Origin: a virus
IMG/VR virus record: IMGVR_UViG_3300027736_000158
Span: 1-31,411 of that record
Length of the DNA stretch: 31,411 nt
Direction: 5' to 3' (one strand)
Shown: one piece after another, positions 5,809 through 30,879 of the stretch
How the letters are laid out: each line of letters opens with the position of its first letter
Numbering within the stretch: the stretch's first letter is position 1
Position numbers and translations under genes: made by a program
The notes under the pieces: generated by a model
The model's input: the letters and a program-made list of their open reading frames with translations, nothing else
The model's database searches: none
Told to the model about the DNA's origin: nothing

Positions 5809-6159
5809 ATGCTCATCATCAAACCCGACTCCATGCCTCCTCTCTGGTGGCTCTTCCCCTGGTCATACGCCCGGCAGTTGTACCGCAACGGTCAGGCGCT
5901 CAAGGCTCTCTGCGACAGGCAGGACGACCTGCTGCGCGGCAAGTATACGCCCCGCCCGCGCTGGAAGATTGATCGTTATGAATCCGAAGAAGGCGTTCGG
6001 TACTACTTCCAAGACACCGATTCTGATATCGAGCGTAACAAGACCTACGTCCGCTTCGGCGGCAGGTCATACCTTTACGACGGGCCTAGCAAATACTTCG
6101 CCTTTGAAACCGACCCGGCCAAGGCCATCGCACGCGTCACCGACCTTAACTCCAAATGA
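5809..6159 (+). CDS. Small phage protein of unknown function
   Basis: This is a 116-residue protein. The start at 5809 is preferred over upstream in-frame ATGs because it avoids overlapping the previous gene and is preceded by CATCCCGCC, a variant of the recurrent leader box. The N-terminus is Pro/Trp-rich (MPPLWWLFPWSYA), and the rest is charged with a Tyr-rich centre and an FGGRSYLYDGPSKYF segment that looks like beta hairpins. No family recognised. It overlaps the next gene by four bases (ATGA). Confidence 0.6.
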   Translation: MLIIKPDSMPPLWWLFPWSYARQLYRNGQALKALCDRQDDLLRGKYTPRPRWKIDRYESEEGVRYYFQDTDSDIERNKTYVRFGGRSYLYDGPSKYFAFETDPAKAIARVTDLNSK

Positions 6160-6362
6160 ACCTGACCCACCACCAGCTAGCGACCCGGCATATGGCGACC
6201 GAGGTCGAGCACATCAACCGCCTGATTTACACTAAGGACCTGTCGGTAGCCAAGGCCAAGCTGATGCTGGCCGAAGCCGCCCACGCCGCCAAGCAGCACT
6301 GCGATGGCTGCACCATCAAGTTTGGTATCAACGCCGGGCGCGCCTGGTTCAACGTCCTATGA
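6156..6362 (+). CDS. Small phage protein with CxxC
   Basis: This is a 68-residue protein, mostly helical (TEVEHINRLIYTKDLSVAKA), with a C-terminal CDGCT pair that could bind a metal. It starts in an ATGA overlap with the upstream stop and ends in another ATGA overlap with the next gene, so translation is probably coupled along the block. Function unknown. Confidence 0.6.
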   Translation: MNLTHHQLATRHMATEVEHINRLIYTKDLSVAKAKLMLAEAAHAAKQHCDGCTIKFGINAGRAWFNVL

Positions 6363-6598
6363 CCGACATCAATCGAAGCAGGATGATTCCCCTGCACGTC
6401 TGCGACCAGGCTGTTGCAAACTGTGAAGCCGAGATCACCGCGCTCAAGGCCGAGGTTCAGCGCCTCAAGCACCGGGCCGAAGGACTACGAGAGGCTGGCG
6501 ATGAGCTGTGGTTCTGCATCCGGCACGGTAAGCGCCTGACCCATGCCGAGGTTCAGGAAGCGGTCGAGGACTGGCAGGACATGAGGGCCAAGGTATGA
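6359..6598 (+). CDS. Short coiled-coil protein
   Basis: This is a 79-residue protein with a central heptad-like helix (about residues 20-48, containing LKAEVQRLK). The remainder is acidic and helical. The LKAEV-RL wording and an AGDE/AGDA segment recur in the next gene, so the two may be diverged paralogues or share a fold. ATGA overlaps join it to both neighbours. Such short coiled-coil proteins are common in phage early regions; the role is unknown. Confidence 0.65.
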   Translation: MTDINRSRMIPLHVCDQAVANCEAEITALKAEVQRLKHRAEGLREAGDELWFCIRHGKRLTHAEVQEAVEDWQDMRAKV

Positions 6599-6945
6599 GC
6601 AAGGTCCATCTAGAAGTAACCATGATGAAGCGCATAGGCGAACTGAACGTCGAGAACGCCCGCCTCAAGGCCGAGGTTGAGCGGCTGACCGCCTTCACTA
6701 CCCGCACCATTATCCCGAATGAGGAACTGCAGAAGCAGGTCGAGCGGCTGGAGGCATGGAAACGTGAGGCCGAGACTCAGCTTAAACTTGCAGAGCATTG
6801 GGTGAACCAGTCCAACACCGAGGTCAAGCGGCTGACCAAGGCAGGTGATGCGATGGCTGAAGACCTTCCGCAGTTTGGGAGCGTTAAAGAATGGAACGTT
6901 GCTAAAAACGGATGGAACGCCGCCAAGGAGGGCGAAACCAAATGA
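6595..6945 (+). CDS. Coiled-coil protein ending in an AAKEG tail
   Basis: This is a 116-residue protein dominated by coiled-coil heptads (about residues 15-85: LNVENARLKAEVERL, then LQKQVERLEAWKREA). It continues to TKAGDAMAEDL and a short C-terminal tail WNAAKEGETK, a tail type I recall from similar phage coiled-coil proteins. The tail is encoded by the left copy of a 17-bp direct repeat that recurs at the end of the glycosyltransferase gene. The same sequence supplies an AAGGAGG ribosome-binding site for the next start. It is joined by ATGA overlaps on both sides. Confidence 0.7.
   Translation: MSKVHLEVTMMKRIGELNVENARLKAEVERLTAFTTRTIIPNEELQKQVERLEAWKREAETQLKLAEHWVNQSNTEVKRLTKAGDAMAEDLPQFGSVKEWNVAKNGWNAAKEGETK
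6917..6933 (+). repeat. Left 17-bp direct repeat flanking the glycosyltransferase cassette
   Basis: ACGCCGCCAAGGAGGGC is identical to 8033-8049. It lies in the 3' end of the coiled-coil gene, encodes the core of AAKEG there, and contains AAGGAGG positioned about 10 bases before the ATG at 6942. Base composition drops sharply just after it. Confidence 0.9.
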
Positions 6946-7220
6946 GATCTCAACGCAAACAAACGCCAGGAGAATTGGATTTAGGGACAGAAATAGTCCA
7001 AGATGATTTTTTTAAAAAAGAATGGCAAGGTATGCCCGAGTTTACAATGAACCCAGAAGTGCCAATGCGGACAATTAAAGTATCATTTAAAACACAAGAT
7101 GACATTGATGCGTTTTCAATGCTTATAGGGCAGATTATTAATGAAAACATTGAAAACTATTGGTTTCCGAAACTTAACAGAAACGCCTTTTCCGATAAGG
7201 TTTACACAGATGAATCCTAA
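6942..7220 (+). CDS. Small phage protein paired with the glycosyltransferase
   Basis: This is a 92-residue protein with an acidic N-terminus, then WQGMPEF, a beta-strand-like IKVSFKTQDDIDAFSMLIGQ, a NYWFP segment and a DES C-terminus. From memory this matches a small phage family with the pattern W-x-GMPEF ... I-V-x-F ... W-x-P that is often next to TET-associated glycosyltransferases; no function is known to me. The start overlaps the upstream stop as ATGA and is preceded by AAGGAGG. Composition is strikingly AT-rich (7081-7140 is 30% G+C by count) compared with flanking genes, so it arrived with the next gene as a cassette. Confidence 0.75.
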   Translation: MRSQRKQTPGELDLGTEIVQDDFFKKEWQGMPEFTMNPEVPMRTIKVSFKTQDDIDAFSMLIGQIINENIENYWFPKLNRNAFSDKVYTDES

Positions 7221-8064
7221 ATACCCCATTTATATCATTAGCAAAGGCCGGTGGGAAAGTCGCCTTACAGCAAAAGCTTTAGATAAAATTGCCGTACCTT
7301 ACCGCATTGTAATCGAGCCACAAGAATACGAACAATATTCTTCTGTTATTTCACCAAGAAAAATCATTGTCCTTCCATTTTCAAATCTTGGCCAAGGGGG
7401 TATCCCAGCACGGAACTTTGTGCTGGAACATTCTATCTCCGAGGGAGCTGCATTTCATTGGATCCTTGACGACAACATTCGGGCTTTTCGACGATACAAT
7501 AACGACAAGAAATACCTAGTAACCTCTGGCACAGTCTTTAAGTGCGCCGAAGACTTTGTAGAACGATACACAAACGTCGGGCTGGCAGGGTTTCAATACA
7601 GTAGCTTCATGGCATACAATCGCCAAAAACGTCCCTTCACATTAAACTGTCGTATATATAGTTGCATCCTCATTAACAATTCAATCGGCATGAAATGGGA
7701 AGGTCGATATAATGAAGACAGCGACCTATCCATTCGTTGTTTAAAGAACGGTTGGTGCACTATTCTGTTTAATGCGTTTCTCCAGGACAAGGCCGCAACA
7801 ATGACCATGAAGGGCGGAAACACCGATACACTTTACAATACTGGAGACAACCGCAGGGAGTTTGCCGAAAGTTTGAAACGTAAGCACCCAGATTGCGTTG
7901 AAGTAATTTGGAGGTTTAAAAGATGGCATCACTTAATACAGTATGACAAAATAAATCGACCGACTCTCCATAGAAATGATTGCATTTCTGTTAACCCCGG
8001 AATAGATGAATACGGCATGGTATTAAGCGAAGACGCCGCCAAGGAGGGCAACGGCCAGCCATGA
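7210..8064 (+). CDS. TET-associated-type glycosyltransferase
   Basis: This 284-residue GT-A-like glycosyltransferase resembles the TET-associated glycosyltransferase (TAGT) group of phages. Marks are the N-terminal strand YIISKGRW (8-15), IEPQEYEQY (35-43), PARNFVLEH (66-74), a DxD-like metal site ILDDN (85-89) and the acidic EDSDLS (169-174). TAGT enzymes are thought to put sugars on modified bases in phage DNA; no TET/JBP oxygenase is seen in this window, so the acceptor is unknown. The ATG at 7210 lies 11 bases inside the previous gene. The gene is AT-rich until about 8030, where composition reverts within the last residues (DAAKEGNGQP), which are encoded by the right copy of the 17-bp direct repeat. 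Confidence 0.85.
   Translation: MNPKYPIYIISKGRWESRLTAKALDKIAVPYRIVIEPQEYEQYSSVISPRKIIVLPFSNLGQGGIPARNFVLEHSISEGAAFHWILDDNIRAFRRYNNDKKYLVTSGTVFKCAEDFVERYTNVGLAGFQYSSFMAYNRQKRPFTLNCRIYSCILINNSIGMKWEGRYNEDSDLSIRCLKNGWCTILFNAFLQDKAATMTMKGGNTDTLYNTGDNRREFAESLKRKHPDCVEVIWRFKRWHHLIQYDKINRPTLHRNDCISVNPGIDEYGMVLSEDAAKEGNGQP
8033..8049 (+). repeat. Right 17-bp direct repeat flanking the glycosyltransferase cassette
   Basis: This is an exact copy of 6917-6933, read in the same frame (again giving AAKEG) at the very end of the glycosyltransferase gene. Its AAGGAGG lies about 13 bases before the next start at 8061. The AT-rich composition ends at this repeat. Confidence 0.9.
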
Positions 8065-8216
8065 CCCGCAAACAGAAGCGACGCCCTGAGCGTCTGAGAC
8101 CCGGCCTCAAGCAGCAGACGCCGGTCGAGGTTAAGGCCACCGCCCGCGAACTGGCAGAGCACCGCAAGCGCTGGGAGTACCTGTTCAGCCTTAACGTCTG
8201 GAAGCCTACCCGATGA
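8061..8216 (+). CDS. Very small basic protein
   Basis: This is a 51-residue ORF beginning MTRKQKRRPERLRPG with an extremely basic N-terminus and a helical C-terminal half (ARELAEHRKRWEYLF). It is linked by ATGA overlaps to the glycosyltransferase before and the next gene after, and has an upstream AAGGAGG. It may bind nucleic acid through charge. It would be the gene that originally followed the coiled-coil gene before the cassette entered. Confidence 0.6.
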   Translation: MTRKQKRRPERLRPGLKQQTPVEVKATARELAEHRKRWEYLFSLNVWKPTR

Positions 8217-8569
8217 CCACCCCCTATAACTCTCACTCCTCGGCGATCAGTGCGATGAATAACCTAATAGATAAGCACGTCCCGCTTAGGGAAGCCGCCC
8301 TGCATGAGCATTACATGAAGGCCGATGAGACGCGCGCGCTGCTCAAGGCGATGGGTTGCTGGCCCGCCAAGACTGGCCGTCCCTCTGAGGTCAGGGGCAA
8401 GAAGCCCAAGAACGGCAAGACCGCCAGCGAGAAGGGGCGAGAAGCCTATGAATGGGCGCGCAAGAATAACGCCACTTATACCGAGGCCGCCGAACGGTTC
8501 CGCATCTCCGCCGACTCTATCCACTCCTACCGCCAATACCGCAAACTCCCTAAACTAAAAACTAAATGA
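8213..8569 (+). CDS. Small DNA-binding-like protein
   Basis: This is a 118-residue protein with a helical N-terminal part, a basic Lys/Gly-rich linker (about residues 55-75) and a C-terminal helix-turn-helix-like segment (NATYTEAAERFRISADSIHS). DNA binding is inferred from that segment and the high charge. It begins and ends in ATGA overlaps within the rightward block. Confidence 0.6.
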   Translation: MTTPYNSHSSAISAMNNLIDKHVPLREAALHEHYMKADETRALLKAMGCWPAKTGRPSEVRGKKPKNGKTASEKGREAYEWARKNNATYTEAAERFRISADSIHSYRQYRKLPKLKTK

Positions 8570-11573: not shown

Positions 11574-12356
11574 CTAAATGTCTATCGGTTCGTCGGCGGT
11601 AGCGATGGCCTCGACCTCAGTAGCCTTGGCCTTCTTCACTGCTTCCTTGATGGCCTCAGCTGCGGGCTGGACTGGCTGGCCTTCAACCGTGCGGTGTCCG
11701 TACTCAGCCTCGTTGTCCTTGTGGATGGCTTCCTGCACGTCACGCGGCAAGCGGGGGAGCCACTTGGCAAGGCGCTTAAATGCGGTCTTCTTCCACATCT
11801 CCATTGGGTAAGTCGCCCAAGGGCCGGACGCACCGGAACGGCTGGCCTTACGGATGGCCTCCACTTCTGCTTTGCTCATCTGAATGGCGGCAGTCTCACC
11901 GTCCTTAAAGCGAACCATGGCGTAGACCGCGTAGGCTTCGCCACGATCCTTGGACAAGTCCACGACGTGCTCTTCGACTTTGCCTAGGTTGAACCGGTAA
12001 TTATCATTCTGGCAGACGATGTCGGCGTGGATGTGAGCCACTTCGCCGGAGCGCATGACCAGAGCGAGGATGCCCTTATAGTCGAACTGCAGGGTGGCGT
12101 CGTTGCCGTAGGGGATGAGGTGGGCATGGTGGCCGTCAGGCATCAGACCCCACTGCGCTGCTTGCAGGATGACCGAGGCCACGCTGGAGGGAGTGCAATC
12201 CCACAGCTTCGGGTTCTTGTTACAGGCGGTGATAACGCAGCGCATAAAGCGAGACGCGTCGTCGGCGTTGGGGAGGGCCTTAGCGACCTGCTCCTGGAGG
12301 GACTGCGAGCGGACAAGCTCGATGGTGTTCTTTGGCTGGACTGCGGGTGTGCTCAT
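11574..12356 (-). CDS. recT: RecT-family single-strand annealing protein
   Basis: This 260-residue annealase promotes pairing of complementary single strands during phage recombination. It shows the RecT pattern: a helical N-terminus, then LWDCTPSSVASVILQAAQWGL (at its core CTPSSVASVIL), HAHLIPYGNDATLQFDYKG, a central strand region and the C-terminal PMEMWKKTAFKRLAKWLP block. The acidic Thr/Glu tail may bind SSB. It is directly downstream of a RecE-like exonuclease, the usual partner. The leader TAACCCTTCCCACT resembles the recurrent C-rich start box, and its first 12 bases (ATGAGCACACCC) match those of the ligase gene. Confidence 0.93.
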   Translation of the reverse strand: MSTPAVQPKNTIELVRSQSLQEQVAKALPNADDASRFMRCVITACNKNPKLWDCTPSSVASVILQAAQWGLMPDGHHAHLIPYGNDATLQFDYKGILALVMRSGEVAHIHADIVCQNDNYRFNLGKVEEHVVDLSKDRGEAYAVYAMVRFKDGETAAIQMSKAEVEAIRKASRSGASGPWATYPMEMWKKTAFKRLAKWLPRLPRDVQEAIHKDNEAEYGHRTVEGQPVQPAAEAIKEAVKKAKATEVEAIATADEPIDI

Positions 12357-12367
12357 AGTGGGAAGGG

Positions 12368-13156
12368 TTAGACGTTAAACTTGGAGAGGTCCACTTCGAT
12401 GACACCGGGGCCGGTCTTGTGGGGCCAAGCCTGCGGATCAGCGCCGAGCGTGGTCTGGTAAGCGGCCATCAGGTCGAGGCCCTTACGGTAGCGACGGCGT
12501 CCGACTTCGATATCGGCTTCGGTCATTACGAACACTTGGACGAAAATCTCTGGGGCTTCCTTGCCCTCGATAGCGATGAAGGCAAAGCCTGTAGGTTTCT
12601 TGCCGGTAGCGATTTCGATGCCGTCAGTATACATGGCCGACTGGCGGTCGTAGCCAAACTCCCAGCAGCTGCGCCTAAAAGCAAAGTGCTCAATGGATGG
12701 CGTTGTTTTTGCATCTACGATTAGGCCGTCCTCGCGGTAACGGTCTGGTCGGCAGCGCATCTCGATGCCGGTGATAGGGTCAGTCCAGAAGAACGAAGCC
12801 TCGTTGACGCCTTCACCTGAGAGCAGGGTAGAAGCCTCAGTGTCCTCCTGCACGGCCTTGGCAATGTTGCAGAGTTGGACGTACTCGTCGTGGCTTACGA
12901 TCTCCTTGCCAATGCTTGCCATTTCAAACTCCTCTTCGCGGGCCTTGGCTCCCTTGCCCTTGTCGAGTCCTTCGGGCATCACGGCCCATTCGGAGCCGAC
13001 GAGCTGAGGCTCGAGGATGATAGTGTGGACAAGCGAACCCCAGCGAAGGGAAGGGGTCTTCTTGCGGGGGGTGTTCATAAGTCGGGGAGACTCAAGGAAG
13101 CGGGACAGTTTTGAGTTACTGACCGCCGGGCTGGCGTGGTATTCTTTGTTGTTCAT
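12368..13156 (-). CDS. RecE-like PD-(D/E)XK exonuclease
   Basis: This 262-residue nuclease probably resects double-stranded ends 5' to 3' to feed the RecT annealase. It has the RecE C-terminal/DUF3799 style: LSRFLESP near the N-terminus, RWGSLVHTIILEP (38-50) with a conserved His, a Glu in EAS near 119, and the active-site string CRPDRY ... IVDAKTT with Asp148 and Lys150. The start at 13156 (MNNKEYHASP) is chosen because it follows CCCCCGCAC, the recurrent leader box. The ORF is open further upstream, but that extension overlaps the ligase gene in another frame. Confidence 0.88.
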   Translation of the reverse strand: MNNKEYHASPAVSNSKLSRFLESPRLMNTPRKKTPSLRWGSLVHTIILEPQLVGSEWAVMPEGLDKGKGAKAREEEFEMASIGKEIVSHDEYVQLCNIAKAVQEDTEASTLLSGEGVNEASFFWTDPITGIEMRCRPDRYREDGLIVDAKTTPSIEHFAFRRSCWEFGYDRQSAMYTDGIEIATGKKPTGFAFIAIEGKEAPEIFVQVFVMTEADIEVGRRRYRKGLDLMAAYQTTLGADPQAWPHKTGPGVIEVDLSKFNV

Positions 13157-13184
13157 GTGCGGGGGAAAGGGGTGGGCGTTACTC

Positions 13185-14072
13185 TCACTTGTCGCCTCGG
13201 ATACGAGGGTGACGCATGGAGCCATCGGGCGTCTTGCTCTGGAATGTGACCTCAAGCCAGGAGCCGATGACGGTGTCTCGGTTCGCCCAGATCGTGGCGC
13301 GCTGTTCGTCAGTGAAGCCACCGCCCACGCGGATAAGGCGACCATTGTTCTCGACGACCACGTGGCCCATCGTGCCAGCCAGACGGCCTTCGCCTTCATG
13401 GACTGAGACTACCGGGCAGTCCTCGGCGTCGACGGCCTTGACCTTAAGCCAAGCCGATGAGCGCTTGCCCTGAGCGTAAGGGGCGTCTGCGTCCTTAATC
13501 ATGGCTCCCTCAAAACCCTGAGAGACGAAGCGACGGAACGCATCGTTAGGAGAGATGCCCATGAAGGACTCGACCAGTTGGACTTTGTCGGAATAAGTGA
13601 AGCAAGCCATCAAGGTGCGGCGCTCACGGTAGGTTCCGACATCGTCGGGAACGTCAAGCAGCCAGAGGAACGCGTCCTCGGCAGGGTCGTTAGAGCGGAG
13701 AGCACCGACAGAGTCGTAGAAGTCAGCGCCGGATACGGCCTCACAGTCGAAAGTAAACACGCCGTGCTTGCTGGCAGTGTCAGCGAACCATGCGCCAAGG
13801 TGAGCGATGGACGGAAGCGGGTTGCCGTTGCGGGTCTTCATGGCGACGGCCAGAGTCTGGCGGCAGACTTCCACGATCACGCGGACTCCGTCAATCTTCG
13901 GCTCAACGGCGTAGGACTCAGGCGTGATGCCCTTGTAGGGGCGGGCAAGCATAGCTTGGGACAGCGGGGCCTTGGGTTCACGGCGAGGGCCAACGCGGAA
14001 CTGCGGCTGGCTCTCAATCATGTTGAAGATATACGCGTACAGGTCGGCGTTCGGGTCGGAGGGTGTGCTCAT
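13185..14072 (-). CDS. ATP-dependent DNA ligase
   Basis: This 295-residue nucleotidyltransferase seals nicks. Motif I is EPKIDGVR, with the adenylated Lys at 59; motif IV is EGAMIK (188-193), motif V is WLKVK (208-212), and a short OB-fold follows to the C-terminus. It is small, as phage minimal ligases are. ATG 14072 is preferred to one at 14105 because it follows the box TATCCCGCACAAC and shares its first 12 bases with the RecT gene start. It leads the ligase-exonuclease-RecT series, a sensible end-repair and recombination set. Confidence 0.92.
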   Translation of the reverse strand: MSTPSDPNADLYAYIFNMIESQPQFRVGPRREPKAPLSQAMLARPYKGITPESYAVEPKIDGVRVIVEVCRQTLAVAMKTRNGNPLPSIAHLGAWFADTASKHGVFTFDCEAVSGADFYDSVGALRSNDPAEDAFLWLLDVPDDVGTYRERRTLMACFTYSDKVQLVESFMGISPNDAFRRFVSQGFEGAMIKDADAPYAQGKRSSAWLKVKAVDAEDCPVVSVHEGEGRLAGTMGHVVVENNGRLIRVGGGFTDEQRATIWANRDTVIGSWLEVTFQSKTPDGSMRHPRIRGDK

Positions 14073-14076
14073 GTTG

Positions 14077-14095
14077 TGCGGGATAGGCAAGGTAT
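14077..14095 (-). promoter_or_regulatory. C-rich leader box before the ligase start
   Basis: Read on the minus strand this is ATACCTTGCCTATCCCGCA, ending four bases before the ATG at 14072. It matches the leader element found before several other genes (CCTTxCC then CCCGCA). It has no Shine-Dalgarno character. Confidence 0.5.
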
Positions 14096-14109
14096 GCCCG
14101 GCCATGAGT

Positions 14110-29049: not shown

Positions 29050-30879
29050 CTATTGGGGGGCAAGTAAGGTTTGCGGTTCGTCTCTGCCGACGAGTCCCCA
29101 TCGTGCCGCAATAAGCATCCCAAGCAACTCACAGTCTAGGGCATGGTTATGCTTAACCCCTTGGCGCAGTCGCCAGATAGGCTTACCAGCTTCCTTTACC
29201 CTCACCTCAGAATCGAGCTGGGCGATATACTCCGGCAGAGCATCACGGGCAAATGTGAACACCTTCCGAGCGCGCGTGCCCCAGAATAAATCCTTACCCG
29301 ATAAATTGCTAAACACGATAAGCGATGTGGGGTTGCGTACCCCAGGCACATGAATGGCGGTCGGCGTGTTGTAGAATCTACGCACCGCATCACCGGCCTT
29401 CGTCTTTACGTTGAAATACTCTTGGCCTGAACCCTTGGAACACTGCCAGCCGCGAGCGGCGCACTGCTTGTAGACTTCCTGCGTAGAATTGCCGTCACCA
29501 GAGTCCACCATGACAAGCTGCGGGTGCACGCCGTGCTTGACCGCTAGGGCGTCTAGACCGCCCCAATCCGTCAGGCCATCAGTGCTATTGACCTTGCCGA
29601 ACCAGACCAGGCGGCTGTGCCCGGTGCGTGACCACTGGCGCACGATTGTCCAGAAGTGGTCCCCCTGACAATCCACGGCTAGGGTCAAAAACTTAACCGA
29701 ACCATCGGGAGCGTCGGCCTTGTCCACGATCTGGCCGCGTGGGCCGATGTAGGCCACGGCCTCCCAAGGGTCTGCCATAGCGTAGTCCGAGGACTCGGTG
29801 CTGACCACCATTGACGAGGTATCATCGCTCCAGGGCTGGGCGAGGTACTGGGTCTTAAACAACTTACGCGGTGTCAGGTCACCCAGCTCAGCGACCTCCT
29901 TTGCCTTAATCATGTCCACGGCCAAAGACCCCCAGCTCGTAGATGCCAGAGCGTTGACGTGCAGCCCGACGTACCCGGCCTTCTCGGCCTTGCCTGTAGC
30001 TACAAACCCAGCGCCGCGCTCGACCTCGTTGCACGTAGTCCGCACCTCGTCGTTATCCTCAAGCCGCACCTTGCACTTGGAGCACTCATAGGTCGTTCCG
30101 TTCTGCACGGCCTCAAGGTCCCAGCCGTCAATGCCCTTAGCGCCTTCCGGAAATCTGATGTAGTCCCAGAGGAACGGCTGCCGATGTAGGCACGTCTCGA
30201 CCGGGCAAACGAAGTGCCACTCTCTCTGGTCGGTCATCAGATAGAACTTCCAGAACTCAGCGCCTTGGCCTTCAATATCCCCTGGCTGACTTTCGTAGAC
30301 AGCCTTACTAGCGAACGCCGCCGCCTTCAGTCGGCTCATGCTCATGGCGATTGCCCCGTTAGGCCACTGCCAGATTTCCGACCCGAGGACATAGCGGACG
30401 TGCAGGGACTGCAGGTGCTTCTCGGTTGAGGCCGATCGGTTGTGAATCAAGCAGCCGTCCGCAAACCGTAGCGTCCCAGACTTGTCGTTATCGTCGGCGC
30501 TCATCTGCGAGCGGATATCGCCAACTTGCTCAAACAGTGGCCGCAGCTCATTCAAAGTAAACCCCTTGGCCTTATCTTGCGAGTCGAGGTAGATAGCCAT
30601 TGAAGCCCGGCGGTTAGCCATCAGGTAAGTCGCAATCAGTTTCAGTGTCAGCGTCTTCCCGCAGCCGATTGCCCAGGGCATGAACATCCGGCTGGTCGTC
30701 GGCGCGTTGAAAATACGCACGGCCTCGGCAATCCACGGCCAGCGCTTAGGGTTGTAGCCACCGTCAAAGACCCCAGCTGGAATCTTCTTAACGTTCTCCT
30801 TGAGGTATGCGACCGGGTCACTCAAGGCCGATGGCCTTACGACTGTCAGTCCCTCCTGAAACAGCTCCTCGGCGTTCAT
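29050..30879 (-). CDS. Terminase large subunit, lambda GpA family
   Basis: This is a 609-residue packaging motor and cos endonuclease. The ATPase has a Walker A-like GCGKT (72-76) after PWAI and a Walker B-like YVLGSEIWQW around 153-162. Two Cys pairs (C215/C220 and C256/C259) could bind zinc. The nuclease half has Asp residues in LTLAVDCQGDHF and LVMVDSGDGNST and a late HALDCELLG. The GpA-type architecture predicts cohesive-end packaging, matching the palindromic ends. The start overlaps the small subunit stop (ATGA). Its last codons (LLAPQ) are made by the leader box of the next gene. Confidence 0.94.
   Translation of the reverse strand: MNAEELFQEGLTVVRPSALSDPVAYLKENVKKIPAGVFDGGYNPKRWPWIAEAVRIFNAPTTSRMFMPWAIGCGKTLTLKLIATYLMANRRASMAIYLDSQDKAKGFTLNELRPLFEQVGDIRSQMSADDNDKSGTLRFADGCLIHNRSASTEKHLQSLHVRYVLGSEIWQWPNGAIAMSMSRLKAAAFASKAVYESQPGDIEGQGAEFWKFYLMTDQREWHFVCPVETCLHRQPFLWDYIRFPEGAKGIDGWDLEAVQNGTTYECSKCKVRLEDNDEVRTTCNEVERGAGFVATGKAEKAGYVGLHVNALASTSWGSLAVDMIKAKEVAELGDLTPRKLFKTQYLAQPWSDDTSSMVVSTESSDYAMADPWEAVAYIGPRGQIVDKADAPDGSVKFLTLAVDCQGDHFWTIVRQWSRTGHSRLVWFGKVNSTDGLTDWGGLDALAVKHGVHPQLVMVDSGDGNSTQEVYKQCAARGWQCSKGSGQEYFNVKTKAGDAVRRFYNTPTAIHVPGVRNPTSLIVFSNLSGKDLFWGTRARKVFTFARDALPEYIAQLDSEVRVKEAGKPIWRLRQGVKHNHALDCELLGMLIAARWGLVGRDEPQTLLAPQ
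29051..29071 (-). promoter_or_regulatory. Long-form C-rich leader box inside the end of the terminase gene
   Basis: On the minus strand AACCTTACTTG followed by CCCCCCAATA ends five bases before the ATG at 29045. The element lies in the last codons of the large terminase gene, encoding the C-terminal TLLAPQ and its stop, so it is kept although it is coding. Confidence 0.6.

Follow-up and report, generated by a model that had tools for sequence, protein, structure and literature searches.

The window analysed here, a stretch of 31,411 nucleotides of viral DNA (IMG/VR record IMGVR_UViG_3300027736_000158), carries a short coding sequence that ends one gene and supplies the ribosome-binding site (RBS) of the next. 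We propose that this sequence is probably a portable gene-end module, which docks cargo genes and reshuffles the small coiled-coil genes of an array by recombination at short homologies. The docking idea was raised in an earlier note on this DNA for a pair of low-GC genes, a small gene (gene A) and a glycosyltransferase (GT) gene, that lie between two copies of the sequence (Table 1). The idea is supported and general: the same gene end, called the tail below, recurs in many other viral contigs, on unrelated proteins and before unrelated genes. The viruses that carry it are read as a group of uncultured tailed phages.

A gene-end repeat bounds the cassette

The tail is present in the window as an exact 17-bp direct repeat, ACGCCGCCAAGGAGGGC, with one copy on each side of the cassette. 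A search of both strands of the 31.4-kb contig found no third exact copy, and the nearest further site (6283-6299) has 3 mismatches. No other 17-mer is repeated in the contig; in order-3 Markov sequences as long as the contig the mean number of repeated 17-mers was 0.03, and a pair within 1.5 kb occurred in none of the 60. The two copies are read in the same frame, as AAKEG, at the ends of two unrelated genes. The left copy closes a coiled-coil gene and supplies the AAGGAGG of gene A, while the right copy closes the GT gene and supplies the AAGGAGG of the gene at 8061, and at both junctions stop and start overlap in ATGA. Two of the four occurrences of AAGGAGG in the window, both strands counted, fall within the repeats. 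A perfect repeat bounding the cassette, read in one frame and containing on both sides an RBS ahead of an ATGA junction, was what the earlier note had described, and all of it was confirmed.

A chance repeat arising from preferred codons and a Shine-Dalgarno site was rejected by the Markov counts as well as by the bacterial-genome, frame and codon counts given below. No excess of RNA structure was seen in four tails that were folded (z from -0.86 to 0.37). Promoters and terminators at the cassette ends were near chance, and promoter-like sites did not coincide with the tails.

Table 1. Features of the window, with the evidence for each
Feature	Position	Strand	Evidence
Small conserved gene that flanks the variable region on the left	6156..6362	+	88-99% identical in most of L002-L016
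Small coiled-coil gene, first in the variable region	6359..6598	+	Homologs in nearly all close relatives; L002 91% identical
Coiled-coil array gene with the left tail copy at its end (WNAAKEGETK)	6595..6945	+	L017 DNA match; different array genes in the other close relatives read
DNA-conserved internal joint (RLTKAGDAM)	6821..6860	+	Rare codons fixed family-wide
Left gene-end module copy	6917..6933	+	AAGGAGG at 6925-6931; exact-match search, frame reading
Small cargo gene A, EW.GMPEF family	6942..7220	+	Near GT in most of 70 homolog loci; alignment; low-confidence model
TET-associated glycosyltransferase (TAGT) with grafted C-terminal tail	7210..8064	+	PF20691 E=1.9e-45; GT-A-type fold matches
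Right gene-end module copy	8033..8049	+	AAGGAGG at 8041-8047; AAKEG at GT end; homology to relatives restarts at 8033-8035
Small conserved gene, docked after the right tail	8061..8216	+	Directly after a tail-ended coiled-coil gene in most relatives
Conserved gene, right flank	8213..8569	+	In L007, directly behind the tail
RecT-family single-strand annealing protein	11574..12356	-	PF03837 E=8.6e-44; phrog_148 E=4e-66
RecE/exonuclease VIII-like nuclease	12368..13399	-	phrog_412 E=1e-65; PF12684 E=9e-24
ATP-dependent DNA ligase	13185..14105	-	PF01068 + PF14743; phrog_114 E=4e-57

Origin of the cargo genes

The low G+C reported for the pair was confirmed: across the contig, 1-kb windows reach their minimum at ~6800-8050 (0.41 vs a mean of 0.57, sd 0.04), and GC3 is 0.33 in gene A and 0.42 in the GT body, the other genes measured ranging from 0.64 to 0.84. 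With its start codon corrected to 7210, the GT matches the TAGT profile PF20691 at 155.7 bits (cut-off 27.5) over profile positions 1-205 of 205, and a second profile, phrog_842, annotated as beta-glucosyl-HMC-alpha-glucosyltransferase. Its predicted model (mean pLDDT 88, low in the last residues) matches GT-A-type enzymes. The window alone, among 32 related or tail-bearing contigs, has a TAGT over the cut-off. The viruses that hold GT homologs are mostly AT-rich, and the closest GTs (65-66% identity) are at 22-23% GC. Most of 70 viral homolog loci have a counterpart of gene A close to the GT, as a rule immediately upstream; gene A itself has no Pfam family, a weak match to a PHROG of unassigned function and a low-confidence model. 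The foreign origin suggested for the pair is supported by its low GC, by the restriction of TAGT to the window among the 32 contigs and by the conservation of the pair in many further viruses, most of them AT-rich.

Gene A is a conserved neighbour of TAGT in many phages (homologs in L096-L161) and is possibly a cofactor of the enzyme. Elsewhere in the window, 10857-11477 matches phrog_139, a phage deoxynucleoside monophosphate kinase (E 1.9e-16), which might be part of a modified-nucleotide pathway tied to the GT; no base-modifying oxygenase was found among the window proteins scanned, which represent part of the ORFs.

In its full-length domain, its GT-A-type fold and the partner gene A upstream, the window GT resembles the rest of the TAGT family (PF20691, phrog_842). 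Its end is different. The homologs typically stop a few residues past an NxYGM motif, whereas the window protein continues into SEDAAKEGNGQP, which forms a low-confidence appendage in the predicted model. Because none of the 70 viral homologs ends in AAKEG and the window protein runs on where they typically stop, we conclude that the C-terminus is foreign, as had been claimed; the tail is not a conserved feature of glycosyltransferases from unrelated sites.

Empty sites in relatives and the history of the insertion

Both cargo genes are absent from all fifteen relatives that share the backbone, which were collected via the 8213 gene alone. In 13 of the 15, an AAKE-type tail (at most 1 mismatch in the 13-bp core) ends the gene before the backbone, and in most of these the tail is joined directly to the 8061 gene. 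Homology to the window restarts at 8033-8035, the first bases of the right repeat, in 10 of the 15 relatives (67-87% identity); in an eleventh, L007, just 33 bp match there (97%) because its tail joins straight to the 8213 gene. Relatives without the pair, in which a coiled-coil gene ending in a single tail copy is joined to the 8061 gene, had been predicted by the earlier note and do exist, but they carry a different coiled-coil gene. The window's own coiled-coil gene stands before the 8061 gene in none of the close relatives read, and the only part of it that aligns with L002 is the joint at 6821-6860 (40 bp, 95%). Two or three tail-ended genes are found in tandem in relatives without GT cargo. 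Contig L017 matches the window at 95.4% DNA identity over 6153-6928, coiled-coil gene included, and stops inside the repeat.

L017 ends at position 6334, as if the assembly had forked there, and population variation at the docking site is possible. The terminase of the window (29050-30879) is 22-24% identical to its best-covering cultured-phage matches, for example Verrucomicrobia phage P8625 and Akkermansia phage Moulinsart.

The end of L017 inside the repeat and the confinement of the exact GT joints to the window's contig, no independent contig having them, are what would be expected if the window were an assembly chimera at the repeat. We consider this very improbable: 17 bp is short for an assembler misjoin, which would be needed twice, the frame, the Shine-Dalgarno site and the overlap are kept at both joints, and the same arrangement is found with other cargo in several contigs.

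A second possibility, favoured by the earlier note, is that recombination across the gene end brought in the cassette and, in doing so, duplicated the terminal part of the coiled-coil gene next to it. An exact 17-bp direct repeat around the cassette and empty sites with one copy would both result from such an event. However, the left copy continues GAAACCAAATGA and the right copy AACGGCCAGCCATGA, and each type occurs elsewhere: two contigs (L077, L259) carry the ETK allele and about ten others the GQP allele, several times directly before 8061-type genes. The copies are thus different tail alleles and, since tandem tails also occur in relatives, they look like two pre-existing tails. As relatives without GT cargo have two or three such tails and the 8061 gene follows some other gene in every close relative read, the claimed duplication was not borne out, and we regard it as unlikely.

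Replacement of the body of a resident array gene is the simplest history, because the alleles differ and two or three tandem tails are common in relatives. The low-GC gene A and the TAGT would have taken the place of that body; the left tail would then close the preceding array gene, whereas the right tail would be the kept end of the replaced gene, now serving as the C-terminus of the GT.

The module in other viruses

A pattern scan found the module, that is the peptide AAKEG, the Shine-Dalgarno sequence AAGGAGG and a 4-nt overlap with the next start, in at least 120 viral contig stretches. The terminases of tail-bearing viruses are 97% down to ~32% identical to that of the window, or show no detectable similarity, so that the module is common to a broad group. 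All 134 exact copies with enough flank in tail-bearing loci are at gene ends and in the AAKEG frame, none being internal or in another frame; this and the following counts refer to copies rather than independent events, in a sample partly selected by the tail itself. Eight of ten relatives chosen independently of the tail carry 1-3 copies, and none of their exact copies is internal. Of 167 copies, 145 have the following start codon 4 nt inside the stop, and another 18 have it 8 nt inside. When 257 Gb of bacterial and archaeal genomes were scanned with a similar pattern, 20 matches were obtained, almost all of them within ordinary genes and none with the coiled-coil joint, and cultured phages searched with the region, the joints and a typical array protein gave chance matches only. 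In neither set was the module seen as a gene end.

The usual body upstream of the tail is a small coiled-coil gene. Downstream, the genes fall into 37 clusters, and 23 of 29 recurrent end segments stand before more than one downstream family; conversely, 28 different end segments are followed by a lysozyme-like family and 18 by the 8061 family. Altogether, the tail is present on five unrelated protein bodies, and for three of them, the GT included, tail-less homologs are known. Thus an HTH-like protein ends in the tail and has homologs without it in L207, L274, L340 and L341, and a protein of the RPRW..DTDP type ends in the tail while many of its homologs, the window's own included, do not. 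Two kinds of small membrane protein also end in the tail. In five contigs with differing upstream genes, one of these membrane-protein genes has a tail-ended stretch in front of it and its own tail at the end, and it is followed by five different next genes (8061-like, two others, a lysozyme-like gene and an array coiled-coil gene). This gene is the best parallel to the window's cassette. In these contigs (L342-L346), the 58-residue membrane-protein body with its tail, set in five contexts between near-identical bounding tails, has the appearance of a small mobile cassette. The conjecture that an RBS-carrying gene end is a general docking site is therefore borne out by the many bodies, the 37 downstream clusters and the other cargo.

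Could the tail be kept merely as a protein motif of the coiled-coil family, such as a tag for localisation or stability, its RBS and its reuse being by-products? The peptide is nearly invariant and every copy is translated in one frame, as this explanation would require. Against it, synonymous positions are fixed too, the tail has been acquired by glycosyltransferase, HTH-like and membrane proteins, and AAGGAGG precedes the overlapping start by 7-13 nt in nearly all copies of the module (GCCGCCAAGGAGG), yet is rare elsewhere in the window. A mere protein motif therefore appears quite unlikely. Rather, the tail DNA combines the code for a C-terminal AAKEGx... peptide with a strong Shine-Dalgarno site and a stop that overlaps the next start. 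Any in-frame body could then be placed before it and any gene after it, and translation would be handed from one to the next.

Coiled-coil array genes as mosaics

The tail-ended coiled-coil genes are mosaics: their proteins are made of shared segments in differing combinations, and their breakpoints cluster in joints that are conserved at the DNA level. For the array proteins, library families gave only generic coiled-coil matches. Interchangeable segments such as TAFTTRTIIPNEELQAQVERL, HLHKGIYSLSLNVAQLKDEVERL and MASSIQFNEEMAKDYNGPTIVHQSVQRWN appear in many combinations (L193, L208, L218, L034, L175 and others). The ends of shared cores, which are not independent events, fall in three joints (LKAEVERL, KAGD and the tail) in 221 of 623 cases, vs 90 (sd 9) at random positions, a 2.5-fold enrichment. 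Codon usage at the internal joints, located for this test by peptide rather than by DNA and in many loci fetched via the tail, is strongly constrained: the commonest encoding of NARLKAEVERL accounts for 40% of sites vs 0.01% expected from background codons, and in KAGDAM the rarer codons GGG and GCG are used in 85% and 96% vs 14% and 20% in the background. Array DNA is common to 10 of 120 pairs of dissimilar viruses and other DNA to 27 of 120; the array represents ~5% of the sequence yet ~23% of the shared letters, so that sharing is enriched in the array but not exclusive to it. The DNA that ends the cargo genes also ends a pool of small coiled-coil genes, themselves joined at NARLKAEVERL and KAGDAM.

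Most phage mosaic joints have no detectable homology (PMC3029335), and ordinary mosaicism, in which illegitimate recombination followed by selection leaves shared gene ends as marks of tolerated joins, must be weighed here. The window copies share 17 bp only and the fusion point of the GT lies outside strong homology, as this explanation would predict. It does not readily explain why the joint DNA is conserved beyond what the peptide needs, why breakpoints are enriched in the joints or why tail-bounded cargo recurs in five contexts, and we find it rather unlikely, although for the GT event by itself joining without any homology, with selection afterwards, keeps some probability.

Candidate recombination agents

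We favour recombination at short homologies, most likely by a phage RecT or ERF protein acting with a RecE-type nuclease, which would both reshuffle the segments and dock the cargo. The genes for an annealing protein and an exonuclease are neighbours in the window. The window and 12 of 12 close relatives have a RecT that exceeds the cut-off; among more distant tail-bearers, 17 of 19 have exonuclease VIII and 8 of 14 have ERF. None of the 19 more distant contigs has phrog_148, ERF being present instead in part of them, and an annealing protein was not found in a minority of the tail-bearing contigs. RecT, Red-beta and ERF systems recombine short diverged homologies (PMC3945230), and the same protein families are present in most tail-bearing phages. 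RecE/RecT- or ERF-type proteins are thus plausible candidates for the agent. Red-beta pairs efficiently over 23-27 bp (PMC3945230). For pairs of tails whose flanks are unrelated, the median shared length is 19 bp, and 33% share at least 23 bp; the two window copies share 17 bp, which is below the Red-beta length. From this comparison, annealing-protein recombination is plausible but 17 bp is marginal.

Short direct repeats around a cassette could also be the attachment sites of a site-specific recombinase. This is extremely improbable given that Phage_integrase (PF00589) was found in 1 of 32 tail-bearing or related records, that ten further window proteins scanned had no Pfam match, and that the joints lie anywhere from the tail to internal coiled-coil segments. 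Integrase-mediated entry was rejected on the integrase count.

It is tempting, if speculative, to go beyond docking and reshuffling and to imagine a selected gene-building locus, in which annealing proteins and three DNA-conserved coding joints, two within coiled-coil genes and one at a gene end that brings its own RBS, would assemble new small proteins and operons from a pool shared by distant viruses. Equally tentative is the suggestion, part of the same reading, that such a locus would be a diversity-generating system rather than passive mosaicism.

Comparison with known systems

The module works like known border, RBS and cassette elements yet does not share the sequence, the position or the structure that defines them. 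Boundary sequences were reportedly described in lambdoid phages by Clark et al. 2001 (HK620) and by Susskind and Botstein 1978, both as cited in PMC3029335. These are short conserved stretches of DNA at gene borders that were proposed to be sites of homologous exchange between mosaic modules. Here too, short conserved DNA lies at the borders of exchangeable genes and breakpoints coincide with it, as seen in the restart of homology at 8033-8035 and in the clustering at the joints (221/623 vs 90). Unlike boundary sequences, the tail is coding, being at once the C-terminus of the upstream gene and the RBS of the downstream gene, joints are also found inside genes, unrelated proteins gain the same tail, and the joint-plus-tail combination is present in no cultured phage beyond chance matches.

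The SAS/ESAS elements of cluster K mycobacteriophages have the sequence GGGATAGGAGCCC and lie 3-7 bp before starts, mostly in large intergenic gaps, with 11-19 copies per genome (PMC3203893). Like them, the module is a short AGGAG-containing repeat at the RBS position of genes of different families (37 downstream clusters here) and belongs to the non-structural half of the genome. Unlike SAS, it has the sequence GCCGCCAAGGAGG, is coding, lies 7-13 nt before an overlapping start and has 1-3 copies per genome.

T4-type phages harbour mobile regulatory cassettes made of a promoter and a stem-loop (Arbiol et al. 2010, as cited in PMC4177764). In both cases, a signal for expression also offers homology by which the modules of a plastic region can be shuffled. 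The T4-type cassettes are said to act at the level of transcription and to contain stem-loops. Our module, in contrast, would act at translation, and it shows no excess of structure in the four tails folded and no excess of promoters. Its own features are the coding joint, the gift of one tail to unrelated proteins and the presence of further joints inside genes.

The origin of phage mosaic joints, most of which have no homology, and the prompt expression of newly arriving genes are old questions. Here, one short and countable sequence would provide the homology for recombination, close the upstream gene in frame and equip the downstream gene with an RBS, and the idea that phages possess landing sites for cargo genes becomes testable. 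It would also explain why unrelated proteins share a C-terminal peptide, by which annotation and homology searches could be misled.
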